Source: Lepidurus packardi
Taxonomy: Eukaryota; Arthropoda; Branchiopoda; Notostraca; Triopsidae
Reading direction: 5' to 3'
DNA: 64,000 nt
NCBI GenBank assembly: GCA_023053545.1
Contig: JAKZAN010000111.1
Coordinates: forward strand, 45,431 to 109,430
The notes under the pieces were generated by a model. It worked only from the letters and a program-made list of their open reading frames with translations. It ran no database searches and had not been told where the DNA came from. The translations under genes and the position numbers were made by a program. Position 1 is the first letter of the stretch. The number at the start of each line of letters is the position of its first letter. Positions 4,634 to 31,727 of the stretch are shown in pieces.

Positions 4634-4634
4634 A

Positions 4635-7526: not shown

Positions 7527-7580
7527 ATGATGTGTTGTTTTGTAAACGGTCGTGGGTGTATCATTTGGGGGTTTTTCAGT

Positions 7581-7595
7581 TACGGGGGAGGAATT
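7581..7595 (+). other. Polypurine tract of the 221-bp-LTR Gypsy
   Basis: TACGGGGGAGGAATT lies immediately before the 3' LTR start TG at 7596, the position of the plus-strand primer in LTR retrotransposons. Confidence 0.75.
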
Positions 7596-9602: not shown

Positions 9603-9808
9603 TCATTTGAGTGCAATACAGCGATTCATTGTCTCTGATTACAAGTAATATAGATTCCAACCATAACCCGATTGAATAGTACATGTGCCTATAGAGCGTT
9701 TGCCAAATTCACCAGTGGCATCTAGTGAAGCGCATGTAAACTATGGATCCGCCATCTTGCGCAATAAAACTCCCTAGTCCTTTAAGGTTCAGTGTAGTAG
9801 TTCCTATT
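9598..9808 (+). repeat. Repeat X, intact 211-bp copy
   Basis: From ATTTATCATTTGAGTGC to AGTAGTTCCTATT. A second copy starts at 9994 but is interrupted at AGAGCGTT by the KDZ unit and resumes at 31612. The segment ATTCATTGTCTCTGATTACA to GTGCCTAT is also found inside the Harbinger MITE at 21325-21400, so X belongs to the Harbinger-related repeats here. In this copy the HARBI1 pseudogene lies directly to the left. Confidence 0.9.
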
Positions 9809-9993: not shown

Positions 9994-10096
9994 ATTTATC
10001 ATTTGAGTGCAATACAGCGATTCATTGTCTCTGATTACAAGTAATATCGATTCCAACCATAACCCGATTGAATAGTACATGTGCCTATAGAGCGTT
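9994..10096 (+). repeat. Repeat X, interrupted copy, left part with target duplication
   Basis: Matches 9598-9700 of the intact copy with a few substitutions and stops exactly after AGAGCGTT (10089-10096). The next base of intact X is not here but at 31620, across the KDZ unit. Confidence 0.93.
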
Positions 10097-10390
10097 CAAC
10101 ACATTATCAGACGGGATCCTGTGCGAAACCACAGGATCGCCTTGCACTCATCCTGTTCATACGCACAGGATTATATACCCACAAGTTTCGCTTCAGCGCG
10201 GGATCACGTGACTTTGTTTTGTTTGCGTTTCACGCGACTTTGTTTTGTTTACGTACGTAAAATTTTTTGTCATGGGTAAAACAAAGAAAAACGAAGCAGC
10301 GGTAAAGGCAGTCCTTTTAAGAGCAAAGGAGCGGCAAGAAGAGTTCGAAAGACAAAAAAAAAGAGGCCAGGAGGATTAAAGAACGCGAAC
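10097..10390 (+). repeat. Left inverted end of the KDZ unit
   Basis: About 294 bp matching, in inverted orientation and at roughly 90% identity by eye, 31611 down to 31342 and then 28601 down to 28580. The repeat includes the first ~40 codons of the transposase gene. Internal hairpin-capable motifs are CCTGTGCG/CGCACAGG, and CACGTGAC with TTTGTTTTGTTT is repeated twice upstream of the start codon. Confidence 0.9.
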
Positions 10391-13300
10391 GCTATAGAAA
10401 AAAGCAAGTGTTTCTTCATGCGTCCCTTACTACCACTACGGGAATGTTACATTCTCGCACCAAACCTCGTCAAAAGGTGGGTAATCATTCTCGTGCGAAG
10501 CGAACGAATGGCCATGCTCCGGATGTACAGGAAACGCTCATCGATTCTCAAGAAAGTAAGACGTAATTTCAGCTTGGAACTGTGTAACGCAAACTGATCA
10601 AAATTATAATTCTTTCTGTAATTTAGACCCGAAGAACGATTCCGGAGACAACAGGAGCACAAGGCAAACATTTACTAGCAATGTGAACCGTACGTCAACT
10701 CGCCCAGCCGAAAGTTGGCGTGAAAGGCGCGATAGACTAGCAGCTGGTTGGAAAACCGTCCGACCCACAATTTTTACCGGCATCATAAAAAAAGAGTCGC
10801 CCGCCCTGCGCTCGAAGCAAATTTGCTTCAACTGTAAAAAGTCTCCAAGTGTCCTCCGGTAAGTAATGTCTTTCTCCCTAAATCACTTAATAAACTCTGA
10901 CTTTAGATGCAGTGACGGATGCGGCGCTTTATGTATCGAATGTGACGCCCTGAAACATACTTTCTTGGCGACACATTTGCGCCATACTTGGGTGTGTGGC
11001 TATCTAATGCCCCTCCAGCCCTGTCAAGTGCTTAAAGCAGAAAGCGATGGTTCTTATGGCATTTCCACTGAAAGTATGTTGTAACTTACGATATTATTTC
11101 AGTCGTTTACATTTGTTGCATTTCTTGTCTTTTTCCAGGTCGAGCAATTCCAATCGACATGGCTCGAGTTTGTAAACATTGTGGCTCTGAGGAAGTCGAA
11201 GATGTATTCGATCTCCCTTGTGTATACGTGTGTAATCGAGGTATCTACTAGTACTGCTTCTCTTTTATTTCGCTAACCGTTTATTTTTAGGTCGGCATGA
11301 TACCTTCCTTCCTGGACTGAAATGTAAGAGCTGCAGTTCGATGTCCAAAGTGGAATGGGACAGTCTGATATTTTCAGATTATTTTTTAGCGTCGTCGTAT
11401 TTTTACAAAGGTATCCTACGACGCTACCCATTAGTGAAACCTAATTGTGGGGCTTTCCTTAGGGTGCACCGTTTACAGCGTGGAATTGCTCCGTGACTTC
11501 CACTATTCAAAAATGGAAAATCCGGGATTTTCAGCGAAAGCCCTTCTGTCCACTCTGGAACGCAAGTCGAAAGACTTGAATGCATCTGTAAGTATCCTTT
11601 ATTGTGCTCTAAAAGGATTGTGCTTGTCACAAGCTCATTCAAATACACCATAGGTCACGCAGATTTGCCAGACATTGTTTAGAGATGCCTATCAGGAGTG
11701 GAGGCGTTGTAAGTTCGGATTGTTAAGCCTTATTGCAAAAATGGAAACGTCTCCGACAACTCATGAAGACTGTGAAGCTCCTTGGACTTTACTCCAGTGC
11801 CCTTCATGCTGGGAGACGTGCCATGTAGTCCACGTTGATGGAAATAAGAAAGTATTTAGATGGAAGCACAATTCCGAGTAAGTTTTCTATATTTCTCAAA
11901 AAAATTTTCTGAATCAGACTGTCAGCTCTATTCGAGAATCTTATATGAAAAGTGCATTCCTTTTACCGGACGCTCACGTAGCGGATTTTGATACAAGCAT
12001 ACGACAGCTCAAACAAACGCGTGTAGCAAAGGTAGTAATTATTTCAGTATTCACAAACGAAACCTTACGAGTGGTCTTCTCTTCAGATTATAGGGCTCTC
12101 AGACCAGTACCTGCAAAGCATCGGACTGGAAAGCAGCGCGTGCAGAATGTCAGTCGTTTGCAAAATTGGACGAAACGGCATCTGCATTGTGGCGTGTCGG
12201 CACGAAATCATACTGGGAGGATTGAACATGTTCCGAGGGGAAATTTATTCGTACCCCCTGCTGCTCCAGTACGAGCTTGGAAAGCAAAGACGAATATGCT
12301 TTGTATCCAGTGATGTTATGTGCCAGCTCTACCCGTTCATGAGGGACACAGCTGAACGGATCAAAAGAGCTGGTGAAGACCATCCCCTAAACGACCTTCC
12401 GCAAATTCTGGAGAACTCAAAGCACTTTGTTCCCGTCTGGCATGCGCATGGACACTGCCTCAATTGCCAGGTAAAACTCCACAATAATGTAGCAAGTTTT
12501 GTAAATATTTCATGCCTAGCTTTGCTGGAGCGCTCGTCATGTGCTTGGGCTGGGCATGTGCACAGGGGAACATTGCGAGTTATGCTTCGCCTACATTTCA
12601 AAGACTGCGCAAACTACGAAAAGAATGGACAAAGCAGGTGAGTATTTTGGGGTGATGGATTTACTTTCTTGAACTAATATTTATGAATCTCAGGTCGAAA
12701 TGAGATGTTAACCGATCACGTTATCTATTGGAACACCAAAAAAATAGAAGCGTTGGTGAAAGCTCTGACAGAGAAGTATCCAATGGTAGGTGTTCATGCA
12801 TTGCTATTTTATTTTGGCTTCCTGGCTTGAGTTGGGTAACTTTTTATCTGTTTGCGCGACAGGTTCCTCGCTTATTGGCGTACCATCAAAAAGAACTCGA
12901 CAAGTTTGGCTATTCGGAAGAGCAGTTGCGGGAGGAGCGTACGAGCATGAAAGACAGAGCGGACGGTGATTGCCTGAAAACATTTTTAAGTGCAAAACTA
13001 ATTAATCATATTTTGCAGCTAACTTGGCTGATCCTGCTCCCGCGCCTACAAAGAAGGACATGGAAGCCGTTCAGGAATTTCTAGACAAGTAGTTCCCTTT
13101 TTTCTGTTTTTTTTTTATTGTGTTATGCATTAAAAACGTAACATCTGAATCTTATTAGTTTGTCAGTCGAGCCTACTGAAGTGTTTGACCTGTTAAGCAG
13201 CGAATCGAGGCGCGTTTGTCCTGTCCGGAAATTCCTGCGGTACGTCCATCGATCCATCACGGATGGTGTTGCAGCGGCTCGTATCAAGAGTTTAAAAATT

Positions 13301-14719
13301 GAAGTGTCAGCTGCAGCTGGTAAGTTTTTCATTCGGTTTAATCGGAACATATCTTCCGTTCACTCATAGAAAAGGTAAGTCATGCTGACCCTGATGTATT
13401 TTTTTGCTTTTTTAATGTCTATCTAAATGAATTGATATCTTTATCTGTAATATGTGATTGTCCGCTTTGCCTAAGGAGAAGCATTTTGTCGTAGCAACGT
13501 AGTCAGAGCACATAAGTAGCTTTTCAGGTGTGCATGAGCTTTTAGGAATTAAAAATGCTTCGTTCATTCGTGTTCCTCGTCTTCTGCTTTATGTAACCGC
13601 TTTATGTAAGTGTGCCGTGCTCCAAAGGCGAAACGATTAGAGGATATGTCAACTGTTTCCCGGTAAAGTTGTCCATTTTTGGCAACAATACAAGTTGTAT
13701 TTTTATAGTTATACAGAATCTATCTTATTGCTAAAAGTATTGTGAATTTGTTAATTCACGGCTTACTTGGGGTGAAAATAAATTAATTTAAGGATCTCAC
13801 TTCTTAAATGAAAGTGACAGCTTCTGCGCAATTATGGGTGTTGTATAATAATGTCAATACAAATCCTTCTTCGTTAAAAAAATCGGTAGTATAGTAGTTG
13901 AATGCATGGCTTACAAGGGTGGGGTATATTCAGACAGTCACTTGCTGACGCCCGTGAATCGCTGTAAATAAGTAGCTTCTTGGGATTGAAGTATCCCTTC
14001 TGCAACAGACCGTTATTTTGAAAAGAACTACGGGAACCGCAGCTTATATTCAAGCATCTTTTCAACTTTTGAAGACACAAGCAAATTGAGGCGACAAAAA
14101 CGCCTGCAAGCCGCAAGCGAGAAACAAAAATGGATGCAACACGTGGAGTGGTACAATAAACTGAGGAATTACGTCCCCGACGCTTCGGAATTCCCCAAGT
14201 TGGCAGAAGCTGACGTGACTGATGTGCACAGTAATACGAATAATTCGATAGCACGTATACATATACTGATGTGTGCTGATGTGTCTAGGCGACCGCGACC
14301 GACTGACCAAAGCCATCGATCTCTTCACTAAAGTAGAGAGAATCCGGGAAGAGCCGGAAATACTTGATAAGGAAATGCACGATTTGAGCCGATACTACGA
14401 AGGAAAAGAGAAGGCGCTCGCAAATTTTCATCCTAGCATGCTTTGGCCCGCTTACGGACTTAAAAAATACTGTTTACCAGAAACCAGTGACGAAGTTACT
14501 CTGGACGGCCTGAAGGCGTTGGTTATTAAGAGACAACGTCATATTTCTGTATTCAGAGAAGACGCCATACGGCAATTTCAAGCCGTCAAAGATTGCCCAT
14601 CTGTTAGTACTGAGACCAACGTACTGGTACGTGAAGAGGACGATGAAGCCGAACCGATAGAGGACAGCGATTGGGATGACGTGGAAGACTTATTTCTGGA
14701 AGAAAGTTTCGTCCTGTAG
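10273..14719 (+). CDS. KDZ (Kyakuja-Dileera-Zisupton) transposase, multi-exon
   Basis: ATG at 10273. Exons supported by open frames and GT-AG ends: 10273-10555, 10627-10858, 10907-11073, 11139-11240, 11291-11410, 11463-11587, 11654-11877, 11926-12031, 12087-12470, 12520-12637, 12695-12785, 12863-12965, 13019-13088, 13159-13319, then about 14082-14230 and 14289-14719. The N-terminal exon is basic. Exons 2-4 encode a Cys/His cluster (CFNCKK...CSDGCGALCIECD) like the CxC domains of KDZ proteins. Conserved core motifs follow: HVDGN, ACRHEI...FRGEIYSY, SSDVMCQLYPFM, PVWHAHGHCLNCQ, and TGEHCELCF, which likely carries the catalytic Glu. The C-terminus is acidic (EDSDWDDVEDLF). Exon 1 has nine A at 10354-10362 where eight would keep the frame. 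How exon 14 joins the 14082 exon across 13320-14081 is unresolved. Confidence 0.85.
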
Positions 14720-16476
14720 AATACGAAACTATTTTATTTCAAGCATAACCTGTTAATCTAGAAATCAAAGGATTTTCATCTGAATTACAAAATTACGTTC
14801 GGTTACTACATAACTCAATGAAGATGGTAACTCAATAATGACAGTAGTTCTGTAACTGAATAATTCAAGTTTTTTTCTATGATTTTGATAACGACAAAAA
14901 ATGCGTGGTTCGTTTCCTATACAACATTTTTCTGAAACAACTAAAGCGAAAATGAATGGGAAACAAACATAAATGTGCTCCTGTGTTCCAAATGATGTAT
15001 GCAAAAATACATACTGTTCTTTATTTTTACGATATACTCGTCCCTCAAGTGAGTAAACATTGTTTGCTCATCATCGTTTTGATCAGCTTGCTCATCGTCA
15101 TAGTTTTCAGCTCGTCATATTCAATTCAATGAAACAATTCGTACAGATGTCACTCAGTTACCGTAGCAACAAGGTATCCGGTTTATACAGACTGACGTAT
15201 TCAGTGACGTCATAACATCATGGATGTTCACGTGGTGTGTACGTGCTATACACGTGAGAATCCGGATGCTGCACGCTATAAGCACGTGATGGTTGCATGT
15301 TCTTTTGTATGGTAAAAGCAGTCTTATAAGTTGTCTAGACGGGACTTTAATTAGGCATTAGCTAATGTTAGTCATAGTTAATGAACTTGTAACAACTTCT
15401 TCAATTCGGAAACTTCGTTAACAGTTGATTTTCATTAGCGTTAATGTTCTTGTCTCTAGACGACTCACTTAAACATATTTAACTCAGGTAGTCGGAGTTG
15501 ATTATCATTAACTTGTCCCGTCTAGCCTAGGTATTACGGTTTGCAGCTCCGTACACTGCTGTCTTTTAGCACATAAAAAGCTTCCAGATGTTTTGGTTTA
15601 GTCAGTCTATCGTATTAGTCGATGCCTGAAGATTCGCATTTAGCTAGCGGAACAGCCATTAAATCTAAAGAAATCTGATACGTAATAGATGCCTTCCATC
15701 GTGAGGCTATGATGACTTTTCAGAAGGCAAAAAGGCAATATTCAAGTCAGATGACATCATAAAGGAGTTATACATTATAATATTAGTGAATTATCTTCAT
15801 GAGAACTTCGCGGTATGGGGGTGGGCACAGAAAATACGTGTGAAGCATACACCAAATTCGCGCTTAAACGTATGGACATCCAAGGGCTGAACGAACGAAA
15901 CGATAAAAGGGAAGGAATAGGCTTAGTGTTTCCTGTTTCTGAAATTTTATATCGAACCTTTTTTCCCGCAAATATATAATTCATATATTGGGACAATCTC
16001 TCCAGCATAAACCGAGATACCTCAAGACGCACAAGTTTGCAAAAAGACGTACACGCATGAGGCATTAAGATAAATTATGTATGACATCTCTCTACTACGC
16101 TACCCCTGTTACGCATGCCTTAATAAAATTACATAAAAAATACTTCGATTTTTGAATCTGCAGATACCAAGACGCGAATCAGTTAATTACTGAATTTTAT
16201 TTTAACAGTTAGATAAAATTGCACGGAATCACCAGGCTAATCGCTATTTTATTTTTGCTATTTTTCGCAATCATCGTACAGTGTTTGGTGATTATTTCAG
16301 ATTGTGACGGGGCGTTACATAGATGAGCGAAACCTAACGTTTTGTTATCCTTTTCTGGTGACGTAGATTACTAGGCGATCAATGCGCTTTTTCTCAGTAG
16401 GCCTGTAAGTCAAACCTTCATCATATCATCCATAGCGATTACAGTTGGTTATTGTTGGTAGGATGCAACATAAACA
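14720..16476. other. No gene seen between KDZ and the MULE region
   Basis: AT-rich, with short chance frames only. One structured segment is listed separately at 15335-15525. Around 15235-15290 several CACGTG-like motifs cluster, without an obvious function. Confidence 0.4.
15335..15525. mobile_element. Possible small MITE, 191 bp
   Basis: CTAGACGGGAC at 15335-15345 is perfectly inverted as GTCCCGTCTAG at 15515-15525. Both ends are followed inward by similar TTAAT-containing sequence. The interior is non-coding. No clear target duplication. Confidence 0.4.
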
Positions 16477-16503
16477 GTGGCGTATACAGGACTTTGGTTC
16501 GTG

Positions 16504-16506
<3 letters not shown>

Positions 16507-16534
<28 letters not shown>
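16507..16534 (+). repeat. 28-nt poly-G run
   Basis: An uninterrupted run of 28 G between GTGGGA and AGGG. The run follows CAGTGGCGTATACAGG, which resembles the outer end of hAT-type non-autonomous elements, although no matching inverted end was found nearby. Run length is likely unreliable in assembly. Confidence 0.7.
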
Positions 16535-16639
16535 AGGGTGCCATGTGCAATTTTTTACACTTGGGTTTCCCTTTGTTCACCAATATACAAAAATCATTTC
16601 AGGGGGTGCATGGGGGTGGGGGGTTAGGGGATCGCCTAA

Positions 16640-16795
16640 CCAGAGCTAAAACGAGCGCGAGCGAATTCGCTCGCGCTCGCGAGTGCGCTCGAAATCTTGT
16701 GAGCGATGAGCGCGAGCCGCTCGTTTCATAAATTGGCGAGCGCGAGCGCGAGCGCAAACGAAATGAGCGCACGCTCGCGATTGTAGCGCCATCTG
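16640..16795. repeat. GAGCGC-rich palindromic tract
   Basis: Dense repeats of GAGCGC/GCGCTC. It contains a perfect 28-bp palindrome at 16652-16679 centred on GAATTC. Its GC richness contrasts with the AT-rich surroundings. Confidence 0.7.
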
Positions 16796-16923
16796 TTGGC
16801 AAATTCCCGTAGTTTATGCCATGAAGCTACAGAGCTTACGGCAGATGGCAGCGACTGATGTCAAAAAGGCGCCAAGCGTGTTGTCAAAAAGACGCCAAGC
16901 GTGTTCAACGTGCTCGTTTGGTG

Positions 16924-16962
16924 CTGTATTTGTTAGCTGTGCGGCACAGCTAACAAATACAG
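16924..16962. repeat. Perfect hairpin, 18-bp arms
   Basis: Arms CTGTATTTGTTAGCTGTG (16924-16941) and its exact inverse (16945-16962) with a 3-base CGG loop. Two copies of AGTAGAATAC follow. Confidence 0.85.
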
Positions 16963-16996
16963 TAGAATACAGTAGAATACAGTAACAAATACTAAC

Positions 16997-17027
16997 AATA
17001 GACTGGCACAGCCTGTGCCAGTCTATT
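16997..17027. repeat. Perfect hairpin, 15-bp arms
   Basis: Arms AATAGACTGGCACAG (16997-17011) and its exact inverse (17013-17027) around a single C. The flanks CTAACAATA and TATTGTTAG extend the pairing with a small bulge. It lies 35 bp from the previous hairpin, and TTGTTAGCTGTG recurs right after it. Confidence 0.85.
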
Positions 17028-17207
17028 TATTGTTAGCTGTGACAACAGCTTAATTTGTATTACAGGTAACTTTCATTATTACTTTCGTTAACTAAAACAA
17101 GGCTTATAACTTATCAATTACACTACTTTAATTATCGACTGTACAATTATTGTCAACTACTCTAGACAATCATGGCGGATTTACCAGTGGAGTTAACACC
17201 AGTGTTA

Positions 17208-17261
17208 CTATTGGTACCACCGGAACAGCGGTGGTCACATGAGCTTACTCCAAAAGGGTAA
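17208..17261 (+). repeat. Left subterminal repeat of the MULE
   Basis: CTATTGGTACCACC through TTACTCCAAAAGGGTAA. The same two blocks occur at about 17671-17720 in the same orientation and inverted at 24467-24521, on the far side of the MULE genes. This brackets the MULE at about 17.2-24.5 kb. Exact ends and target duplication were not found. Confidence 0.6.
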
Positions 17262-17306
17262 GGATTTTTGGTTATAATGTACGGGCGCATACATAGAAGT
17301 ATGGAA

Positions 17307-17386
17307 GATAGTGGTGTAGTGGGCAGAGGCAACTACTGATGCTAGGGTGGAGAGGGTTCGATTCTCTTCAAATGCAGTTGTTTTTT
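17307..17386 (+). ncRNA. tRNA-like Pol III unit, copy 1
   Basis: A box-like TGGTGTAGTGG at 17312-17322, B box GGTTCGATTCT at 17355-17365, spacing 43 bp, and a T6 run at 17381-17386. The T-arm GAGAG/CTCTT can pair. I could not fold a full acceptor stem, so this is a tRNA-derived sequence or pseudo-tRNA and not a confident functional tRNA. It is homologous to the unit at 17766. Confidence 0.45.
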
Positions 17387-17765
17387 CTTGTACTATGGTA
17401 CAGGAAACTCTTTTTTAACTATTTCGTTTTAAATTATTCTTTATCTTTAATTATTCTGTATTTCTAATTATTTTAAATTATTATGCATTTAAATTATTAT
17501 ATGTTTTACTGGTTCTGTTGTAAATTATGTTCTGTTTAATTATGTGCAATGTTTTTCCTTGTACTATGGTACAAGCACTTCCTTTTCACTTATTATGTTC
17601 TACATTATTCTGTATTCTGTGTATTCTCTATAAATTACTCTTCCGTGCTTTACTGAGCTAATGTGTAAGTGGTACCACCGGAGTTGCGCTGTCGTTATGA
17701 GTTTACTCCAAAAGGGTAAGGACTTTTCGTTATAATGTACGAGCGCATTTCACAATAGTATTGAA

Positions 17766-17842
17766 GAAGTTGTGTAGTGGGCACAGTCAACTACTGATGC
17801 TACGGTGGAGAGGGTTCGATTCTGTTCATGTGCAGTTTTTTT
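17766..17842 (+). ncRNA. tRNA-like Pol III unit, copy 2
   Basis: A box-like TTGTGTAGTGG at 17770-17780, B box GGTTCGATTCT at 17813-17823, the same 43-bp spacing, and T8 just after. Both units are preceded by the same TTACTCCAAAAGGGTAAGGA block, so a ~150-bp module is duplicated about 458 bp apart. Confidence 0.45.
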
Positions 17843-18222
17843 TCTTGTACCATTTGACTTTCATGTTTGTCTACTCTCCAAATGTTAACTCCCTGAGGCG
17901 CGCTGGTGCTGGTCTCCAACTTGAGTGTCATCCCGTTCCATATGACTCATTTTGCTTGCGACTTCCTAAGCTTGCGGTGCCCTTCGCCTTCTACGCTTGC
18001 CACGCTTGCATTTTTGCTTCAACCGCATTATTCCTGTGTTCCGCTTTCTTCCCTTTTTACGTCGGGTACGTTTTCTTATTATTTCTCCTTCATTATTTGC
18101 TCTTTTTCTGCATGTTTGCTTGGTTTTTCTTCCATTGTTTGTTTTGTTTTCACTCCTTTTCGCTTCTTTTTTTCCCGCTTTAGCTTGCTGTCTTGAGTCT
18201 AAGACATTAAAAGTAGACAAAA

Positions 18223-21200
18223 ATGGTTTCTGTTTTAGGCTTCAGAGGGATTGGGAGGCTTCAGAGATTTAGGGAATGTCTAGGAAATTTGCGAAAAACA
18301 GCAGATTTACCTGCTGCTGCGTTTTCTAATATTTCTCTCGAAAAAATCTTGATTAGTCAAGAAAACTTGAGTAGTTTCGAGACATTGTGTTTGGAGTATA
18401 GGGAAGAGTTTAGAGGAATTGAACTGCCAACTATTTTGGCACTGCCAGAATCTCTGTGCTATGTTGGTAATGATGAATCTGCTTGTGAAATCATTCCAAG
18501 TCGCTTCCGTGATGGATTTACTGCTTTGAAAAGTCAAGGAAATGGGAATTGCTTTTATAATTCAGCTTCGCTGATATTGTTTGGTAATGAAGATCATGCC
18601 GATGAGATTCGTTGTCGAATTGTCGTTGAATTAATGACAAATAGTCAGCTTTATTCAGATCCAGGTCTTGGTTATGTCAGTGACAACCAAATTGCTAACA
18701 TGGTGAATTTTACTGGCATTTATATGACGCGCTTTCTGTTTCCTGGTCTGGAGTTCCCAAACACTGATATCGGGAACGCGCAAAAGATTATAGTTATTTA
18801 TGCGATGGAGCAGGCAAAGTCAGGGCAATACGCGTCATTAGTGTCTTTCGCTGCCTTGGCCAATGTTTGTCATAGGACCGTAGAGTCACTTTATCCAGTT
18901 GTCGATGTTCCCTCAAGTAGTACGCATCACCCTGCCTTGCATTTCAATATGAATTTTGTCCCTATTGGTTGCAACAGCCCAGAAATTCTCCGAATTTTAT
19001 GGTGTGGTGGAAACGTGGAAGCACATTTGCAGAAGAAAGAAGGGCGGTCAGTTCTTGCGTGTGGTTGGCAGCCGAAACATTTTGTACCACTTTGCCCAAA
19101 GGTGGTCAGTTCTAGTCCGTATTCTGGTCAGTTTGCAGATCGCAGTTTCAAAATTGCAGCTAGTCGCAAAGGTGCTAAATTGTCGAGGACAAAAGGTAAA
19201 ACAGCAAATAAGTCAGATGAAGTTAGCGTTATTGATCTGGTCGTTGCTAGACCTGTTGGAGAAATAAAGCAAGAGTCGGACAGTGATTTCGAGAATCCCA
19301 ACAGTAAAGAAAGGAATACCGAAACAAAACGTAAAGGAGATTCTAGTTTGCCTAAACGTAGGTCAGTCAGTGATATTATCACATGTTCTGTTGATTCTCA
19401 AATTGAACAACAACAGAATCAAGCTGAGTTAAGGTGCAAAAAATGCAAAGCCGAGTTCACGAGGGTATTTAACTTAGAGCGTCACGTACGTTTGGCAAGA
19501 TGCAACATGCTTAAAGAAGCAAAGAATGTTTGCAGTAAGTGTGGGAAAAGGTTTGCTAGGAAGTATGGGCTTGAACGTCATATTGAGGTGGTACATAGTT
19601 CTTTAAAAACAAAAATTAAAGGTCCTGTAAGCAATAAAACTTCGAACGAGAGAATAGTCTCTGTCTCATTAGTTCCTGAAGGAAAGTCAGGTTCTTCGCA
19701 GTCCGACCCAGTACCTTATATAGAAGAAGAACTTGAGGTAGAAGAAGAAGAACTTGAGGTAGAAGAAGAAGTTGAGCCACTATTAAGCAGGGCTGAATCT
19801 GATGATAGTAAAGAAACGAAATCCCAGGACTCCGAACAAGACGCCAGTGACAGTGCTGTCATATTTTCCGAAGATAGCGATTCGGGTGATCGAAAATTTG
19901 ATTCACGAACAGTAAAACAGAACAATAAACGGATAATTTGTTGGTATTGTGGCTTAGCAGTGAATAAGCTGGTAGAATACGTTGCACATGTTAGGATTAA
20001 GCATAGCTTCCATTGTAAAATTGAAAGCAGCACATTTCATGACAGAAATACTTTTGAACTCTGGAAAACAGAGTTAGAAAAAGCTGACGGAGTTTCTTTC
20101 GTTAGCCGAAGGGGAGCTCGTCGTCACACAAGCTTCACTACGACGACTTATATGTGTAATCGGTCCTTTTCTTACAAAAATCGTAGCATGGGTAAACGTG
20201 CCCTCAAACGTCTAGGCTCGTGTCGTACAGGAGTGTCTTGTATTGGTTTTATCACTTGTCGCATCAGTCATTTGTCAGGTAATTGTGAGGTAACGTTCTG
20301 TCGGTCACATGTGCCTCATGATCGTCTTGCTGGTAGATGCCGTCTGCACAAAGAAACCCAAGAGGTAATAGCACAGAAACTTACTGTCGGTATCTCCAAA
20401 CGTAAAATCATACAAAGCATTTTGAGAGAGAATTTAGATGAGCCTCCTTGTCGTGATAATGCTATTACTATGAAGGATCTTCATAATGCCGAAAACAAAA
20501 TTCCAAATCCCTTCCGGAAACACTCTGTAGATCACGAAAGCGTTGATTTGTGGGTTGAAGAGATGGCAGTGAGGCTAGATAATCCAGTATTTTTTTTATA
20601 AGAACCAGGGCATTATAAACGAAGAAAGTCAATTGCAGGTGGCCAATTTTGCGCTTGGCATCATGTATGAACCGCAAATGAAAGCATTACTTGAGTACGG
20701 CAGCCAGTGTATTTGCATAGACAGCACGTATCAGGTTAACCAGTACCAGTTTGTCTTGACAACGGTTATGGTTTTGAATAAAGCTCGGGCTGGATATCCT
20801 GTTGCTTTTCTAATAAGTGACAGGGAACATAGGGAAGTATATCGTCTCTTTTTTTATGAAACTTAAAGAAAAAGTCGGTGAAATTAGAACAACGGAGTTT
20901 ATGAGCGATATGGCTGATCAGTTTTGGCTAGCTTGGAGAGATGTCTTTGACACTTCTACTACGAGGAGAATTTGCATTTGGCATGTGGAAAGGGCTTGGA
21001 AGAAAAGAATGGAGCAGCTTCGCGGTTCCGTCACTAGTCATGAAGAAGATTCTCAGGTTATAACCTGTCAAATTTTCAGCTTACTTAGGGTGCGTTCCAA
21101 TTGGCGACTCAACCCGGGTTGAAGTGGGTTTTCAACTCGGGTTCCAGAACTCGCCTGTTTCAAGTGGCCAAACTCGGGTTCAAAGTGGAGTTTGGGGAAG

Positions 21201-22695: not shown

Positions 22696-23265
22696 GCACG
22701 TTTCACTTTTTGTTTTCTTCTTATGTTTTTCGCGTTATTATTATTTGACCTGTTCATATTGGATGTACGAAGAGATGATGTGAAGAAGTAAAGATGTCAA
22801 AGTGAACTTAACAAATTCGTAGCTACGGCCAAACGAAACGTTTTGTTCCAAGAGGCATCGGGTTCCAGGGGGACCCATTTTTAGAGGCAAAAGCTGAACT
22901 GCATTGTAGAATAAAACTATTGCATTTAGTATTTTGCTCTTAGAGGTGTTGTCTGAATTACGTTGATACTAACTAGAGATTCGGGACTTCCATGGCCATT
23001 TGTATTTCATTGTGTCAGTTTCTCAAATCCTTGTCGGACTATAACTTTACTTCTTGCCCAGATAACAAGTCGTACCTTTTGCTAATTCGAACCATAAGAT
23101 CCGTAAGAAAACTCTTGTGTACGGAAGGAATGTTTCCCAAAAACCCCAATCAACGACTAAATAGAAATATGTGTAACAATTTTAAGAAAATATTAAGGGA
23201 TTTCATGAAGTAAACGCATGGTAAGCTGAGTGAGGTAATTTTTATTACAAAACTACATTTTCACT
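22696..23265. other. MULE 3' flank, no gene seen
   Basis: AT-rich. Short frames (for example near 22992-23213) show no recognisable features. It separates the transposase from the minus-strand gene that ends at 23266. Confidence 0.4.
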
Positions 23266-24005
23266 TCATTTCTTAAGCTTCTTCATTTCTTGTGCTGCTT
23301 TTTTTTTCTTGTACTCGGGCAGCCGGGGCTTTACAGCTGTGCGCTTGGTGGCCGCGTGCTTTGCAATTGCTGCAGTAACCTCGAAAACTAAAATAAAGCA
23401 TAAGTTTTCTGCATAATTAGAGGATAATCAAAAACTTACGCTCTCGGGCGGCGGATACTTCCCAGCCTTGGGCCCACTCCGTCCGCTGCCCCGCGGGCAA
23501 TCGCCTCCACCGCCTCGGGGTTCACTCCATGTTGGAGGGCTGCAGTGACTGCAGCACCCACTGCAGCCCCCATCAACCCCTTAAAAAAAGCCAATTGGTA
23601 CGCTCCATCGGCCACTGCGGCAACTTCATTACGTTGGTCTTCTGCAATTAATTTAAACAAATTAATTAGTGCCAAAAACACACTTAACCCACTTACTTAA
23701 CTCAACCCACAAATCAACGCTTTCGTGATCTACAGAGTGTTTCCGGAAGGGATTTGGAATTTTGTTTTCGGCATTATGAAGATCCTTCATAGTAATAGCA
23801 TTATCACGACAAGGAGGCTCATCTAAATTCTCTCTCAAAATGCTTTGTATGATTTTACGTTTGGAGATACCGACAGTAAGTTTCTGTGCTATTACCTCTT
23901 GGGTTTCTTTGTGCAGACGGCATCTACCAGCAAGACGATCATGAGGCACATGTGACCGACAGAACGTTACCTCACAATTACCTGACAAATGACTGATGCG
24001 ACAAG
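23266..24005 (-). CDS. Chimeric spliced gene carrying a copy of the MULE zinc region
   Basis: Minus strand. The upstream exon (24005-23702 and a few bases beyond) is an inverted copy of MULE 20255-20558 and keeps the same frame, including FCRSHVPH. After ...DLWVE it runs to a GTAAGT donor; the intron ends ...AATTGCAG near 23645. The next exon encodes an Ala/Gly-rich stretch (GLMGAAVGAAVTAALQHGV). A second intron (about 23389-23440) joins a basic end with KKKKAAQEMKKLKK and TGA at 23266-23268. The first codon is unclear. Function unknown; possibly a DNA-binding accessory protein or repressor of the MULE. Confidence 0.5.
23702..24005 (-). repeat. 304-bp inverted duplication of MULE coding sequence
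   Basis: Reverse complement of 20255-20558. I saw no difference over the full 304 bp, and the encoded residues are the same. Identity ends sharply at both sides. The two copies are about 3.1 kb apart in opposite orientation. Confidence 0.9.
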
Positions 24006-24057
24006 CGACAAGGTGTCACGCGAGTTCAAAAGTGGTAGTTGGATTGGAAATGCATTA

Positions 24058-24144
24058 GTTTAGGTTAGGATAGGTTAGTTAGGTTAGGTTAGCTTAAGTT
24101 TGATTAGGTTACCTTAGGTTAGGTTATAGGTTACATTAGGTTAA
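24058..24144 (+). repeat. Interstitial TTAGG-like tract
   Basis: Degenerate runs of TTAGG/GGTTA, the arthropod telomeric motif. It is too short and degenerate to be a telomere. Smaller traces occur at 27930-28100 and 28395-28410. Confidence 0.6.
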
Positions 24145-24290
24145 CGATTCTCATGAGAGTCGTTAAAACTTGCTCTTTCTTTCACTCCATTAGCTGAAAA
24201 AAGACAAATTCATTGTTGGCCAGTGACACACTATAGTGTCATTTTTGACTCGGGGGTACATTACGTACGTATGTACTTAAATCCGGAGAA

Positions 24291-24490
24291 CGTGTTCGAG
24301 AGGCAGGCATTTTTCGTATAACATTTGGAGTAAAACAACCCATGCCGGCTCGAGAGCCATTTTTCGTTACCCTTTTGGAGTTAATTAATCCATGCCGGCT
24401 CGAGAGCCATTTTTTGTAATCCTTTTGGAGTAAAATAATCCATGCCGGCTCGAGAGCCATTTTTTGTTACCCTTTTGGAGTAAAATAATA
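24291..24490 (-). repeat. 50-bp tandem repeat, about four copies
   Basis: Units start CATGCCGGCTCGAGAGCCAT at 24341, 24391 and 24441, exactly 50 bp apart, with a degraded copy before. Each ends in a CCTTTTGGAGTAA block, the inverse of the TTACTCCAAAAGG block near 17250 and 17706. This places the array in the right subterminal region of the MULE. Confidence 0.85.
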
Positions 24491-24625
24491 AGCGCCGCCA
24501 AGCGGTGAGTGGTACCAATAGATTCATGTTTATTAGCCTACTCCCTACCGTTTGTCTTGTGTAATAAACAAGTATCGAATTCGTAAACGATTTATGATTT
24601 TACGAGCTATTTCATAGAAACGAAA

Positions 24626-26412
24626 ATGGAGACGAAGTGGAGGCAGAATCGACGCTGTCCTCATTGCAATGTGGAACAGAATTACATGCGTAAACAGTGC
24701 AGCGCGTGTGGAGAGCAAACACGTTTTAGGGACCAAATGGACCAAAAAATATCCGACAACATGCGACAACATTACCTAAAAGCGAAGTTGCAATCTCAGA
24801 AGTGGGACAATGCTTATGCCAAAAAGAAGATAGTTCAGAGAATGGTAAGCAAAATATAATTAGCACAACAAATTTTAGTTGCTCAACACTTCTGTATATA
24901 GTTGGCAGAGTTGGAAGGTTCAGGCAACGCTTGTGTCCTTCTTGTGATAGGGAAAGAACCAAGCTACCGGTTCACGTACCTCACATGTAATGACATAATG
25001 CACAGCTTATTTAAAGAAAAACAAGATTCGGGAAATAGTAACTTCGCTGCAGAGATAAGCACAATGTGTAATAACTTGAGGGATGAGTACGTCTCAAGAA
25101 TAAAGAAGTAATGTTTTTGTCTTAAAATATCGATCTTCACAATAATAATTCAGCCTGTAATTATAGAGGTGAACTTCCCAATAAATGGGTGGAATGTGAA
25201 AATACAATGAATCTGGAAGAGATCGATGGCTTCCACAACTCCGTTCCAACAACCCAAGTGAGTCGACCAAAGTTAAGTAATTTTTAGAAGCGATTGTTTA
25301 CAGTTTACCCCAGGAGAGCCTTGTGGAATCGATAAGGGAACCAGAGGACAAAGAGGCTGCTGCATCTGCTGCTGTTATGATAACTCAAAAAAACCCTGCA
25401 GCTGTTATGGTCACACCAAAAAACGCTGCATTAAAGGACCCGATTTTACAGGATGTATGGTGTGCTACTTTGGACCGGGCAATAAGCACACGTTCGGAGA
25501 CCACTGAAGTAATTCGAGAAAAGTAAACGTACCGTTACATCCAGTCGTGTGATTGTATACTTAGGTAACCTCTGGGCTGTTACAAGCCAATCATTAGGGA
25601 AGAATATTCCTGCTGTCTCTTTTAAACCTAGAAATGTCGCTGCTCGCGGAGCACCGAAAAGAAGCGGAACAGGTGACTGGGTTCTTATCGTATATTGTAT
25701 TGTTGATTGGTTCTTTTTATAGGAAACCTGAAGAAAAAATGCGACGATGGCAACAAAAAGGAAAGTGGTTTTATCGCTTTGGACCGTCAAGTATGTAGAT
25801 ACGTTTATTAGATTTCATATCCTGGGATGATATTTCGTAGCCCTTACCGTATAAATGTATTGCTTGATTGTAGAAAAAACATGTGGAACTTCCCCGTGGA
25901 CCCTCAAAGATGGCAGAGAAAAAGCCAGAGGAAGCTATTCTTGGATATCAGGGAGAAACTTACTCCAGTATAACTGCTTTTTGTGTGTATGTGTATTCTG
26001 AATTCCTATTTATACACTTTATTACAGGGAAGAGAACTAAAGTAGATCCACCTCCAGTTTACCAAGAAGGAAACTCAAATGCCACTGTAAGTATATCCAA
26101 TTACAAACATACAGGTTGCAAGAATAAATTTTTTCTTTAGGTGATTGGTCATTCCACTTTGGCACAGATCACGTTAGAAGACGAGGTACAAGAGTAAACG
26201 TTAATTTGCGACTTTTTTCCGATTCACTTAGCGCTTTATTCATTTCAGGGAACTGTTGAACAGGAAGTGGAGCACGTGTTTACTCTACATATGGAAATTC
26301 CAGAAGACAACATATTTTGTCCAGAGGTAACGACAAAATTATCGTTATGATTTATGTAGCAACGGAACAGATTTTAGCGATTCAGTTGACAGATTTCTTG
26401 ATTAATAGGTGG
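24626..26412 (+). CDS. Unrecognised multi-exon gene, N-terminal zinc ribbon
   Basis: ATG at 24626. A consistent spliced frame can be followed through about ten exons with GT-AG ends: 24626-24844, about 24901-25109, 25167-25258, 25315-25524, an exon from about 25587 (acceptor TTACAAG), about 25722-25789, about 25874-25966, about 26030-26083, about 26142-26186, 26250-26325, with a stop just after the next acceptor near 26410. This gives roughly 330 residues. Residues 11-27 are a zinc-ribbon-like CPHC-x(10)-CSAC. The rest is charged and low in recognisable motifs (for example NLRDEYVSRI). An AATAAA lies near 26583. Intron sizes resemble those of the KDZ gene. I recognise no family. It may be unit cargo or a KDZ accessory protein. 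Confidence 0.6.
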
Positions 26413-26589
26413 TGTAGCATTAAGAAGTGGAAGACGATGAAGGGGAGGATGTTCACGTAATACTGGAGGCCGCGTGAACACCCAGCCAATCAGTATGCCA
26501 AATCAAACAATCTAATCAAGATCTGTGTTTCTGCCAGTTACCTGATTTCTGTACTGCCATCATAATGTGCAAAACTGCCAAAAATAAAA

Positions 26590-26770
26590 GAACTTCATTT
26601 TCTACACGCTGGGGTTTGCTTCCAGGAAGATTCCCACATCGTTCCATCCGCTGTCATCTGTAGGTTCGTCGTCTTCGTGCTCTTTCAACGATTGCTGGCT
26701 CTTCGCGAATCCTCTCGATTTTTGTAAAGGTCATTTCCTTCACAACGTCATATTCCAATTTAGAAAACTA
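26590..26770 (-). pseudogene. Second KDZ copy (B), C-terminal remnant
   Basis: On the minus strand the sequence reads FTKIERIREEPAIV, close to FTKVERIREEPEIL of the left KDZ. After a shift it reads EDDEPTDDSGWNDV, close to the acidic KDZ C-terminus, with TAG at about 26603. The ~90 residues between these blocks in the left copy are missing. Confidence 0.75.
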
Positions 26771-26779
26771 GAAATGATC

Positions 26780-28165
26780 AAACGCATTGTCTTAAACTTC
26801 AGAAAGGTCTTAGGATTGTCATAATTTTAAGTAAACACCCCGAAGTGAATAATTTAACTTTTCTACCAAAATTAGTGCGATTTCATAATTACGTCCATAA
26901 AGAGAGTTAGGAATGATCTTTAAATATTCTTTAAGCCATGCACAAAAATAACCACAACATTTTTTAGCGATTGGAACAATGCTGTATATTTACAAAATAC
27001 AAATTGAATTGCTGCGTAGAAAAGGACATCTTTACCGAACAATAATTAAGTTACTAATCTGTGACATTTGTGAGAAAAGTTACACCACTATGGAATAAAA
27101 TAAGCCACAAACTGCTCATTATTACGTTTACTTTCCTTTAAATTTCTCGCTTTCTGTTCTGACACAGGCAACAGCGGGGCAACTGGCAAAATTAATTCTG
27201 ACACGTTAATGGGCACCACCTTTATATAGTATCCCTACCAACCAGAATCTTACAAGTAAACAACCCAAGTCAACAAGTAAGGCGAGTTTAAAAAAAAAAA
27301 AAAAATTGCCCCAACACAGTGTAAAAATTCTTTCACATAGTACCATAGAAGGGTTGAAAGTGACCTTTTTGTTTATTTCATTAGCGTTTTTAAATTTAAG
27401 GTTCAATAACTTAAAAAAATGCAGCTAAAAAGAGGTTTAACCTACCCCGTTGTAGTGGCCGATGACCTATACCCTATGCTAGGACACTTCTCACCAGCAG
27501 CTTCACGATAAATAAAATATAAAATAGAAACTATGGAAACGAAAAAAACACAGAGGAAGCAGAGTGACCAGTATAGCATTCTGCCCAAGAAAGAGCTAAT
27601 TTACCGAATATCTTTAAAATTAAACCCTTCTGATCAAAAAACTCTTTAAAGCCAGAAAAAAGGACGACGAAAAGAAAAATTGAAAAGAAAAATTTATCCT
27701 TTAAATATCCTTAGGTCGTCCCACAGAGATCAGATAAGAATATGTTTATTGTAATTAATGAAGGTCATCGGGCTGCTTATTTGTTCTACGGCGTGCGCAG
27801 TACGTTTGGTGTTGTACTCCCCCTTCAAGTTTCTTCTCTCATAATCACTATCAGTTTGAAAAAATCTGCACTAAGCTCATTACAAACATTCATGATTTTA
27901 ACCTGGTCATAACTTGCCTTTACTTAATAACCTAACCTAATCTACGCTAAATCACTAGTCCATTAACTTGCCCGTGTGGTTTTAACGCGCCTGGGTTTAG
28001 TGCATTAAAATAGGTTAAGATTTTTTTTATTAGGTTTGGTTTCTTTAGGTCTAGTTATAATTTATGCTGGAACTAGTTATAAGTTAGTTTTCGTTAGGTT
28101 ATAATGGGCAAAAGGTGACCAGACAGGTATATTATCAAAAAGTACCGCGTGGGCTCGTTTAGGTT
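26780..28165. other. No gene seen inside the right part of the KDZ unit
   Basis: AT-rich with an A-run at about 27290-27305 and scattered GGTTA motifs. By position it should correspond to the lost middle of KDZ copy B, but I see no coding similarity. Confidence 0.4.
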
Positions 28166-28169
28166 AGGC

Positions 28170-28394
28170 CTCTTTCGACTCGTACCAATTTTTTGCAAGC
28201 GATTGCCGTTCGGCTCATGCCGCTTACCAACGAGACACCTTGCAGCTGCTGGTCAGACAGACCTATTACTAGCAAAGTGAACATTTGTAAGATTTTGATT
28301 AAAATACTGAAACAAATACTACCTTCGCTACGCGGGTCTGTTCATCTCTCGTACGGATGTGAAAAAAAAATCTGCTACACGACCGCCAAGTGAG
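28170..28394 (-). pseudogene. Second KDZ copy (B), central remnant with intron
   Basis: Minus strand. EQTRVAK aligns with KQTRVAK at the end of the left KDZ exon at 12031, followed by an intron of similar length. Next comes IGLSDQQLQGVSLVSGMSR, aligning with IGLSDQYLQSIGLESSACR of the left copy. This supports the splice acceptor chosen at 12087 and shows that the right part of the unit derives from a KDZ element in inverted orientation. Confidence 0.8.
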
Positions 28395-28579
28395 AGGGTT
28401 AGGTTAGGTTCCTCGGCTCAGTTTATGATCACTGTCAGGAACGTCTGTTGTTAAACTTAAAAGCAGTTTTCACCCACTTAAAGTGCTTGAGAAACAAGAA
28501 ACCCATGAGGTATAACTGAAAAACAAAACTACATAAATATTTCGCTGTCAACCGTCTTATTTAAAAATTATAAAGGAAG

Positions 28580-28601
28580 GTTCGCGTTCTTTAATCCTCC
28601 T
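28580..28601 (-). repeat. Right inverted end of the KDZ unit, inner 22 bp
   Basis: Inverse of 10369-10390 (GGATTAAAGAACGCGAAC). It is cut off from the rest of the right end by the Gypsy at 28602-31336. The last five bases, CTCCT, are the Gypsy target duplication. Confidence 0.88.
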
Positions 28602-28715
28602 TGTAGTATCTGATCAACCAGCTGATTGCAGCGAGTTGATAAAGCCGGCCGGTGGTGGTGCTGTTCAACGGATGTTCAACAAATACAGTAGTCTAGAGTA
28701 TTCCAGCACATTACA
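28602..28715 (+). repeat. 5' LTR, 114 bp
   Basis: Among the shortest LTRs expected for Gypsy. Starts TGTAG and ends TTACA. Same sequence as 31223-31336. Confidence 0.94.
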
Positions 28716-28746
28716 TTGGCGACGAGGAGAATTTCTTTTAAAAAAA

Positions 28747-30747
28747 ATGGCTTTAAGTTTGCCTCCATTCGAATCATTTCGTGTAAGTGAAGAACCCCAC
28801 ACAGCGGGTCCACGCTGGGCAAAATGGATTTCTCAATTCGAAAACTTCCTTATCGCAATGGACATAATAATTGACGAAGAGCAGGAAGAGTCCAAGCAAT
28901 TGGCAAATGACCGAAGAAGATTAGCCCTCCTTACTTACTATGTTGGTTCGGAAGTTCGGGATATTCTGGAAGAATTACCCTCAACTTCTGGAAAGGACAC
29001 GTTCTCGAAGGTAAAGCCTTTATTGCAAGTTTACTTTCAACCTAAACAGAACATAGAACTGGAAATCCTCAATTTTCGCAACATGCTGCAAACAGAAGGC
29101 GAAACAATGGATGCTTTTGCAACAAGACTTAGGCAACAAGCTGCCAGATGTTACTTCACAAACAAGGATCAAGAAATCCGTTTACAGATTATCGCAGGAT
29201 GCGTTTCGAGCCCATTTCGACGCCTTTGTCTAAGAGAAAACTTGCAGTTGGAGAAAATGCTCGACCATGCAAGATCGGAAGAACTATCAATAAAGTTCGA
29301 TGAAAAAATCAAGAGACAACGCGCAGAGGTTGTGCAGGCAGTTCATTCACACAATCATAAGGGAAATAATAAACAACCCGAGAAGAAAATCAACAAAGAA
29401 ACCAAAGATGCAACTGAATGCTGGAACTGTGGAGGAACATGGCCCTGCCCTAAGGAAATGCCCTGCCCAGCGAAAGGAAAATCCTGTTCGAATTGTGGAA
29501 GGATAAATCATTTTGCAAAGAAGTGCCGTGGTGAAAAACCAAATCACAAGAATGGACATCAGGTACGGCAAATCGAAGATGAAACGTCCGGTGATGAATC
29601 TGTACTGGCAGTTAGAAAAGGAACAGGAAAGCTGGCTTACGCATCGATTGGATTATGCAAGTCAACTGTGCCTATGATTATAGATACTGCGGCAACGTGC
29701 AACATCATCAACGAGGAGACGTACAGAAAGCTTCGATACCAGCCAACTTTGCAACCCCAAGAAGAATTTGTAGGCGGCTATGGACGGAACGAAATCGAAA
29801 TTAAAGGCAAGTTTGAAACAACTGTCAACTTCAAGCACACCGCCGTACAAGCCACGATCTTGGTCTCTAAAGCAGGTGACAACCTGTTGGGTTACGACAC
29901 TTCTAAAGAATTAAAGCTTGTTCAAATTGCAAACGTGATTAACGAAGTATCGGAATACCAAACATTCAAAGACAAGTTTCCTCAACTATTTTGTGGGATT
30001 GGGAAACTGAAGAATTATCAAATCGAACTCCATATAGATCCATCTGTACCCCCAGTAGCGAGAAAGCACCGTCGGATCGGATTTCACCTAAGACAGACAG
30101 TATCTGAAGAATTAGACAGACTCCTTGAGGCGGACATCATCGAACCGGTAAAAGACGGACCGACCCCATGGGTCTCACCATGTATCGTTGTCCCCAAGCC
30201 AAAGCAGCCAGGGAAATATCGCATATGTGTTGATATGCGGTCGCCTAATCAAGCCATTCTTCGGACACGCCATGTCATTCCGACCGTCGAGGACCTCATT
30301 GTTGATCTGAATGGGGCGAAGTACTTTTCAAAATTGGACATGAATCAAGGCTACCACCAGCTAGAGCTAGCGCCTAAATCAAGATTTATAACAACGTTCG
30401 CTACACACCGCGGTCTCTTCCAGTACAAACGACTCAACTTTGGAGTTAATTGCGCTTCAGAGATCTTTGATGACGTTGTTCGTCAGATTGTTAGCGGTAT
30501 TCCTGGTGTAGTCAACCGAAGCGACGATATTTTAGTAACAGGTCGCAACAAAGCAGAACACGACAGGAACTTGGAAGAAGTCCTAAGAAGGCTGGCAGAA
30601 CGTAATTTAACACTCAACTATGAGAAGTGCGAGTTCGGCAAGACCGAAGTGACTTTTTATGGCTTAACCTTCAACGATCAAGGTATTGCACCAGATAGTA
30701 AACACAGAAGAAGTGTCGAGTTTTTTGGGTATGGTGACGTTTTGTAG
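28747..30747 (+). CDS. Gag-protease-RT polyprotein of the 114-bp-LTR Gypsy
   Basis: ATG at 28747, just after the primer site (666 codons). Capsid-like gag, then Cys-rich CWNCGG...CPAKGKSCSNCGRINHFAKKC with one good CCHC knuckle. The protease motif reads IIDTAATCNII: the usual Gly of DTG is Ala. RT has KLDMNQGYHQLEL and an RSDDILVTG active site with both Asp present; the xSDD form occurs in the Mag/K02A2.6-like group. At about 30700 a small deletion shifts the frame, and RT-connection and RNase H continue at 30700-31015 (SSFLGMVTFCSRF, IVDASPKGLGAIL). They stop at YASRR and then fuse to a pol tail reading RRSTRERRPPKSFRDF (31030-31090). Integrase is absent. Confidence 0.85.
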   Translation: MALSLPPFESFRVSEEPHTAGPRWAKWISQFENFLIAMDIIIDEEQEESKQLANDRRRLALLTYYVGSEVRDILEELPSTSGKDTFSKVKPLLQVYFQPKQNIELEILNFRNMLQTEGETMDAFATRLRQQAARCYFTNKDQEIRLQIIAGCVSSPFRRLCLRENLQLEKMLDHARSEELSIKFDEKIKRQRAEVVQAVHSHNHKGNNKQPEKKINKETKDATECWNCGGTWPCPKEMPCPAKGKSCSNCGRINHFAKKCRGEKPNHKNGHQVRQIEDETSGDESVLAVRKGTGKLAYASIGLCKSTVPMIIDTAATCNIINEETYRKLRYQPTLQPQEEFVGGYGRNEIEIKGKFETTVNFKHTAVQATILVSKAGDNLLGYDTSKELKLVQIANVINEVSEYQTFKDKFPQLFCGIGKLKNYQIELHIDPSVPPVARKHRRIGFHLRQTVSEELDRLLEADIIEPVKDGPTPWVSPCIVVPKPKQPGKYRICVDMRSPNQAILRTRHVIPTVEDLIVDLNGAKYFSKLDMNQGYHQLELAPKSRFITTFATHRGLFQYKRLNFGVNCASEIFDDVVRQIVSGIPGVVNRSDDILVTGRNKAEHDRNLEEVLRRLAERNLTLNYEKCEFGKTEVTFYGLTFNDQGIAPDSKHRRSVEFFGYGDVL

Positions 30748-31222
30748 CAGATTTATTCCCGATGCAGCAGCGATAACCGAACCACTAAGGAAACTAACAC
30801 ATCAAGACACCCAATGGAAGTGGGGAAACGAGGAAAAGGATTCGTTCAGTCGGTTAAAGGACAAACTACTGGAAACAACAACGTTATCATACTACGATAT
30901 ACAAAAGCCGACTAACTTGATAGTAGATGCTAGTCCGAAAGGGCTTGGTGCAATCCTAACACAACAATCCAAGAATGGCCAAGAAACTGTCATCAGTTAT
31001 GCCAGCCGGAGATAGAACAAAATCCGGTCCTGAGGCGCAGTACCCGTGAGCGTCGTCCCCCGAAAAGTTTTCGTGATTTTGTACCTGTTTGAATTTTCTT
31101 TGAATATGGATCTTGTTAATTTTTCCATGCAATATGATATGTTTTGTAACAAGTTAGATATACCCAAGTGAAAGTGTAATCCAACCAAGAAACTCTCTTT
31201 AAAAAAAAAAAAAAGATAGTAA

Positions 31223-31336
31223 TGTAGTATCTGATCAACCAGCTGATTGCAGCGAGTTGATAAAGCCGGCCGGTGGTGGTGCTGTTCAACGGATGTTCAA
31301 CAAATACAGTAGTCTAGAGTATTCCAGCACATTACA
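31223..31336 (+). repeat. 3' LTR, 114 bp
   Basis: Preceded by an A-rich tract ending AAAAGATAGTAA. Followed by CTCCT, then by the right KDZ end. Confidence 0.94.
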
Positions 31337-31341
31337 CTCCT

Positions 31342-31611
31342 GGCCTCTTTTTTTCGTCTTTCGAACTCTTCTTGTCGCTCCTTTGCTTTTAAAAGAACTG
31401 CCTTTACCGCTGCTTCGTTTTTCTTTGTTTTACCCATGACAAAAAATTTAACCACTAAACAAAACAACGTCACGTGAAATGTAAACAAAACAAAGTCACG
31501 TGATCCCGCGCTGAAGCGAAAGCCGTGGGCATATAATCCTGTGCGTACGAACAGGATGAATGCAAGGCGATCCTGTGGCTTCGCACAGGATTTCTATCTG
31601 ATAATGTGTTG
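31342..31611 (-). repeat. Right inverted end of the KDZ unit, outer 270 bp
   Basis: Inverse of 10097-10368. It encodes on the minus strand the same transposase N-terminus (MGKTKKNEAAVKAVLLKAKE). Here the A-run has the length that keeps the frame open, unlike the left copy. Confidence 0.92.
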
Positions 31612-31727
31612 AGAGCGTTTGCCAAATTCACCAGTGGCATCTAGTGAAGCGCATGTAAACTATGGATCCGCCATCTTGCGCAATAGCACTCCCTAGTCCT
31701 TTAAGGTTCAGTGTAGTAGTTCCTATT
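31612..31727 (+). repeat. Repeat X, interrupted copy, right part with target duplication
   Basis: Starts with the second AGAGCGTT (31612-31619) and continues TGCCAAATTCACC as in the intact X at 9701, ending TTCCTATT at 31727. Left part 103 bp + right part 116 bp - 8 bp = 211 bp, the length of intact X. Confidence 0.93.

Follow-up and report, generated by a model that had tools for sequence, protein, structure and literature searches.

The closest described systems to the element reported here are the KDZ and Zisupton transposons. According to PMC12810828, KDZ1 of Cryptococcus neoformans is about 11 kb long, has 241-bp terminal inverted repeats (TIRs) and 8-bp target-site duplications, and encodes a transposase that combines a KDZ catalytic core with a Zn-chelating CxC domain, while KDZ2 and KDZ3 are about 9.2 and 10 kb long, respectively, with duplications of 4-8 bp. 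A second source (PMC12730594) gives 8-bp duplications for Zisupton and 7-bp duplications without TIRs for two Kyakuja families, and describes fungal KDZ elements that have a TET/JBP gene inside their ends. PMC9297572 describes the Zisupton genes of nematodes as multi-exon and places related genes in other animals as well as in algae and fungi; it reports that target duplications were not detected for the nematode genes. Here, we analyzed a window of 64,000 nucleotides from Lepidurus packardi (bases 45431-109430 of the contig designated C100), in which a unit spanning 10097-31611 has inverted ends and one copy of the octamer AGAGCGTT on each side. The analysis leaves little doubt that this unit is a KDZ element of ~11.3 kb, which inserted once and later received nested insertions, and that the 21.5 kb never moved as one piece.

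The window element resembles KDZ1 in its length of ~11 kb, its long TIRs, its 8-bp duplications and its combination of a KDZ core with a CxC domain; it differs from KDZ1 in matching CxC3, where KDZ1 has CxC1, in TIRs of about 275-294 bp, and in its nested insertions. A multi-exon KDZ transposase, TIRs and 8-bp duplications are likewise shared with Zisupton. Like the fungal elements bearing TET/JBP, the window element has an extra gene inside its ends, although in this case a candidate only, and unlike them it shows no TET/JBP match at E ≤ 0.1 in the native frames scanned outside the transposase. Judged from its sequence, the element fits the published picture of KDZ transposons: it is a well-documented insertion of an otherwise ordinary KDZ element.

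A second copy of the insertion without the additional DNA

The genome searched comprised 108.6 Mb in 344 contigs. We found that a second contig, C58, contains the same insertion: the same octamer stands on either side, the flanks match those of the window at 98.6% and 99.2% identity, and the element is 11,259 bp long. Alignment with C58 assigns 10097-16641, 24530-28601 and 31337-31611 of the window to the KDZ element. In place of window positions 16642-24529, which hold a block including a Mutator-like element (MULE), C58 has 431 bp of KDZ sequence and no MULE block, and in place of 28602-31336, occupied in the window by a retroelement with long terminal repeats (LTRs), it has nothing, showing the empty site of the LTR element with a single CTCCT. 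A paralogue of 9.2 kb at another site (C4) also contains neither the MULE block nor the LTR element, with 430 bp of this KDZ stretch retained, and both are missing from two further copies (C6 and C4b). A third contig, C2, has the right flank, the octamer, the right end, the MULE block and a single LTR of the pair, corresponding to the right half of the window's insertion; its MULE has an empty site for a miniature inverted-repeat transposable element (MITE), being without 21088-21472. Since C58 and C4 are without the MULE and LTR element and C2 has a partial set, these data point to a later invasion of the ~11.3-kb KDZ element.

The perfect outer ends and 8-bp duplication enclosing the whole unit, together with a nearby empty-site copy described below, would suggest a giant cargo-bearing element, and the original prediction was of a large cargo-bearing KDZ unit that either moved with the MULE and other genes or gained them later. 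On the cargo reading, 21.5 kb moved in a single step and C58 subsequently lost the MULE and the LTR element. Simple loss, however, would not restore the clean LTR empty site of C58 or its 431 bp of KDZ sequence (430 bp in C4). The right KDZ-MULE junction was crossed by 2 of the 60 matches listed, those of the window and C2, both of one insertion, and no KDZ-MULE junction outside the window's insertion was among the matches listed (40 of 460 candidates scored in the junction search). Nor was a 21.5-kb unit found at any other place among the matches listed in the genome searches, and the MULE and LTR element were not found to accompany the KDZ ends, either across several insertion sites or in all copies of a single site. 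C58 and C4 thus contradict the large unit, unless gene conversion from a MULE-less copy overwrote C58, and we regard it as very improbable. It is the alternative of later gain that C58 and C4 bear out, and the copy of this insertion on C58 shows that the extra 10 kb came afterwards.

A different reading of C58 is that it represents a second KDZ element in the same octamer of a duplicated target. Its left end is 26 bp shorter, lacking the tandem-repeat unit at 10204-10229 as do six other left ends (12 examined), and it differs from C100 at 10354, 11423 and 11670, among a few sites, as a separate insertion might. The 26 bp is, however, one unit of a tandem repeat, which can drop out more than once; C58 and C100 have a common base at each of 10235 and 10313 that is not found in the 10 other left ends; and the flanks and the interior are about equally close (98.6-99.4% identity). 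We therefore give a separate insertion scarcely any credence and treat C58 as a copy of the window's insertion. The shorter repeat also raised the possibility that the left end of C58 had undergone gene conversion. This was set aside because loss of a tandem unit is simpler and positions 10235 and 10313 agree with C100; positions 10354, 11423 and 11670 do not agree with C100.

Target site and repeat X

The inverted ends, the flanking octamer and a repeat, X, that is split exactly at this octamer were all as originally claimed (Table 1). The rejoined halves of the split X give 103 + 116 - 8 = 211 bp, the length of the intact X upstream, and match it at all but 3 of the 211 positions. The distance between the intact and the split X is 185 bp and not 200 bp as had been stated; the intact copy is nonetheless a valid control within the window. 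A single insertion event with an 8-bp duplication, also proposed for the whole unit, holds for one KDZ element but not for the entire 21.5 kb. Because C58 has the same two junctions and octamer as the window, an assembly join at the ends of the unit appears unlikely. The intact X resembles a copy of the target junction that was put 185 bp upstream prior to the KDZ insertion.

A genome search with X, in which 40 of 81 candidates were scored, gave 40 matches. Intact X accounted for two of these (the window locus and C58), whereas 20 covered the left part of X alone, ending at the base preceding the octamer, and 16 the right part alone, three of the latter being right halves of the window's site; the other two were split left halves of that site. 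On these matches, X is a chimera, the junction of two repeat families and not a single repeat, and it is still valid as an uninterrupted control. We fetched 30 X-part loci, some of them overlapping, which include 11 left-part loci and, away from the window's site, 12 right-part loci. All 11 left-part loci continue into sequence common to the MITE at 21088-21472, which we take to be Harbinger-like from its 3-bp duplication and its ends. The right-part loci start 2-3 bases before the octamer in 8 of 12 cases and ~10 bases farther out in the other four, so that the KDZ target is the very start of the right-hand repeat. Since the octamers at the other three two-ended KDZ sites are unrelated to AGAGCGTT, landing at this start looks like a coincidence.

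Terminal repeats and the KDZ family in the genome

The inverted arms align without gaps in two pieces, of 136 bp (92% complementary) and 105 bp (95%); the inverted ends measure ~275-294 bp and the full TIR ~294 bp, the right arm being split by the LTR element. Both arms share their first 15 bases, CAACACATTATCAGA, which begin at 10097 on the left and, in inverted form, at 31611 on the right. This 15-mer has 19 exact matches in its own genome (9 forward, 10 reverse), as compared with one for a reversed-pattern control (0 forward, 1 reverse). A query with the left terminus gave 22 genome matches (22/22 candidates scored), in 20 of which the terminus is present, 12 being left-type and 8 right-type. 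After the two matches without a terminus were dropped, all 12 x 8 = 96 left-right combinations were compared for their 8-bp flanks. Nine of the 96 have the same flank, each of the nine within one insertion site; because flanks match only within single sites, the two ends act together as one transposon.

The group with AGAGCGTT flanks comprises the copies on C100 and C58 together with the right end of the C2 copy. The copies on C4 (9.2 kb; duplication CAAGATTT), C6 (4.2 kb; ATCTCCCT) and C4b (1.3 kb; TTACCATC) are internal-deletion derivatives with both shared ends, and the C6 copy also contains ~2.3 kb unmatched in the window. The result is a well-delimited KDZ family of ~11.3 kb in one genome, with three sizes of deletion derivative. 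The original prediction had put forward a comparison of terminus copies by content and flanks: a perfect 8-bp duplication was found at 4/4 independent sites with near, facing ends, none extending to 9 bp, while a distant pair on C1 is mismatched and the internal MULE and LTR element are not shared.

That C1 pair (C1:4536593 and C1:4568376) offers a precedent for two unrelated KDZ ends joined by rearrangement or assembly. For the window, however, such a join is contradicted by the identical octamer on both sides, by the split X that rejoins with 3/211 differences, and by the second contig with the same two junctions, and we consider it the most improbable of the explanations weighed here.

In two pairs of KDZ left ends, C38:222821 with C38:234332 and C1:4263079 with C1:4536593, the flanks are identical but oppositely oriented, as would be seen if the neighboring DNA had been duplicated and inverted.

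Order of events

The simplest order suggested by these copies would begin with a cut-and-paste DNA transposon of the KDZ superfamily, about 11.3 kb long, entering AGAGCGTT once and duplicating 8 bp, its transposase presumably binding the long inverted ends, cutting and joining, as membership in the family implies. C58 would have split off after this insertion. The MULE and a 558-bp repeat would then have replaced 431 bp of the KDZ interior and the LTR element would have entered the right terminal repeat, and C100 and C2 would have split after both had been gained. Finally, the Harbinger-like MITE would have entered the MULE in C100, and C2 would have undergone LTR-LTR recombination, leaving a single LTR, and lost its left half. 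The nested elements probably arrived by their own enzymes, to judge from the ends that each possesses and, in the case of the LTR element and the MITE, from their target duplications as well.

Several observations weigh against this account. Whereas a MULE target-site duplication is expected to be ~9 bp, inspection of both sides of the MULE block found no matching duplication, and on this ground we rejected a clean insertion in which the MULE had duplicated its target. The MULE block adjoins the 558-bp repeat, designated Z, and the left neighbor of the MULE differs between C100 and C2, so that the left flank may be rearranged. Because of the missing duplication, the adjacent Z and the varying left neighbor, the arrival of the MULE was not a clean single insertion; most likely, the MULE would have inserted first and one side would then have been deleted or rearranged. 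Neither a left KDZ end nor a transposase was found on C2 in the genome searches. C58, C100 and C2 may be either alleles or duplicated segments; the 34 matches to a query with the far right flank (43500-45000) lie on many contigs, of which C58 is not one, and those on C2 are scattered pieces of 74-97% identity. The facing ends of the C1 pair, 31.8 kb apart, have different flanks (GGACGAAT and AATGGGCT), and therefore some of the KDZ ends come from elements that are separate or have been rearranged. In addition, the right end on C16 is truncated and was hence left out of the flank test.

KDZ transposase and a candidate second gene

The KDZ domain (PF18758) was matched at 2.2e-13 by a raw ORF (open reading frame) of the window, and at 7e-25, over profile positions 4-212 of 217, by a spliced model built from C58, which also matched CxC3 (PF18804), the KDZ-associated cysteine cluster, at 7e-10. 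In this model the first seven exons splice in frame, while the later pieces were joined by eye, some joins being tentative. The KDZ domain, the CxC cluster, the 8-bp duplication and the TIRs that characterize the KDZ superfamily were all found, and on these features the unit is one KDZ-superfamily insertion. The start codon at 10272 and the first 30-40 codons of the transposase sit in the terminal repeat, and the right end therefore has an inverted copy of the transposase start region. In exon 1, the A-run at 10354 is one A longer in the window than in C58, shifting the frame; as the extra A is present in 6/12 left ends, it is a polymorphism of the family and not a slip in the window. A protein search for homologues of the transposase, with 7683 candidates, gave none at E ≤ 0.001.

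The right part of the native element contains a candidate second gene, whose start resembles a zinc ribbon (Table 1). Its concatenated ORF pieces gave weak zinc-ribbon matches (0.027 and 0.24), below the cut-off. Four copies aligned show 102 variable columns, and between C100 and C4 the codon differences over seven ORF pieces number 3 synonymous and 9 non-synonymous, with a gapped codon in two of the seven; these counts do not favor selection on the gene. Neither the forward frames of 14720-16641 nor any of the six frames of 24530-28601 matched a Pfam family at E ≤ 0.1, in a scan that left out the reverse frames of 14720-16641 and the 431 bp kept by C58 and C4. It seems doubtful that the candidate gene (from about 24626) truly encodes a factor for transposition or for interaction with the host and, at the same time, that the transposase start region at both ends serves a purpose.

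Table 1. Features of the KDZ insertion, its target site and the nested elements, in window coordinates
Feature	Position	Strand	Remarks
Intact X, uninterrupted copy of target junction	9598-9808	+	211 bp
Split X, left half; member of Harbinger-like MITE family	9994-10096	+	103 bp
Left 8-bp target-site duplication AGAGCGTT	10089-10096	+	same octamer in C58
KDZ element proper, left part	10097-16641	+	aligned to C58, and to the C4 paralogue with a 2.1-kb deletion
Left KDZ TIR; 26-bp tandem repeat and transposase start codon (10272) inside	10097-10390	+	
KDZ transposase gene; CxC3 and KDZ domains	10272-14719	+	many short introns
Repeat Z, about 558 bp	16642-17199	.	without MULE at C16 and C5 (two), shorter at C1
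Nested MULE, ends CAGTGTTACTATTGGTACCAC / inverted ACATGAATCTATTGGTACCAC	17200-24529	+	with Z, replaces 431 bp of KDZ sequence
MULE transposase domain (PF10551), ORF piece	20579-20866	+	profile match
Harbinger-like MITE within MULE	21088-21472	.	3-bp duplication TTA; not in C2 copy
KDZ element proper, right part	24530-28601	+	found in C58, C2 and C4
Candidate second KDZ-element gene, zinc-ribbon-like start METKWRQNRRCPHC	24626-26350	+	
Nested LTR retroelement, in right KDZ TIR	28602-31336	+	own 5-bp duplication
5' LTR, 114 bp	28602-28715	+	identical to 3' LTR
3' LTR, 114 bp	31223-31336	+	identical to 5' LTR
Right KDZ TIR, outer part	31337-31611	-	inner ~17 bp at about 28585-28601
Right 8-bp target-site duplication AGAGCGTT	31612-31619	+	octamer read at right junction
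Split X, right half; start of other repeat family	31612-31727	+	116 bp

Nested and neighboring elements

The MULE transposase match had an E-value of 9.5e-07 and a score of 29.6 bits against a cut-off of 27.6. Among the other MULE copies, many of those listed start within 1-2 bases of 17200, and many end at or a few bases from 24529. Repeat Z reaches both the KDZ border and the MULE border within a few bases, at the place where the 431 bp of KDZ sequence are gone. Within the MULE, 310 bp of its coding sequence are present twice, at 20249-20558 and 23702-24011, in inverted orientation and with 99% agreement; this arrangement is also present in C2.

The nested LTR element has the ends TG...CA and is flanked by CTCCT at 28597-28601 and 31337-31341. 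It encodes a protease, a reverse transcriptase (RT) and part of an RNase H; no integrase domain was found in the two ORFs scanned. The left flank of the window contains another LTR retroelement, at 3979-7817, with RT and integrase domains in an ORF at 4635-7526; it is not present in C58, where its empty site is seen. Farther upstream, a 676-aa ORF at 905-2935 matches the Baculovirus F protein (2.4e-24); Baculovirus F-like proteins occur in env-bearing Gypsy elements.

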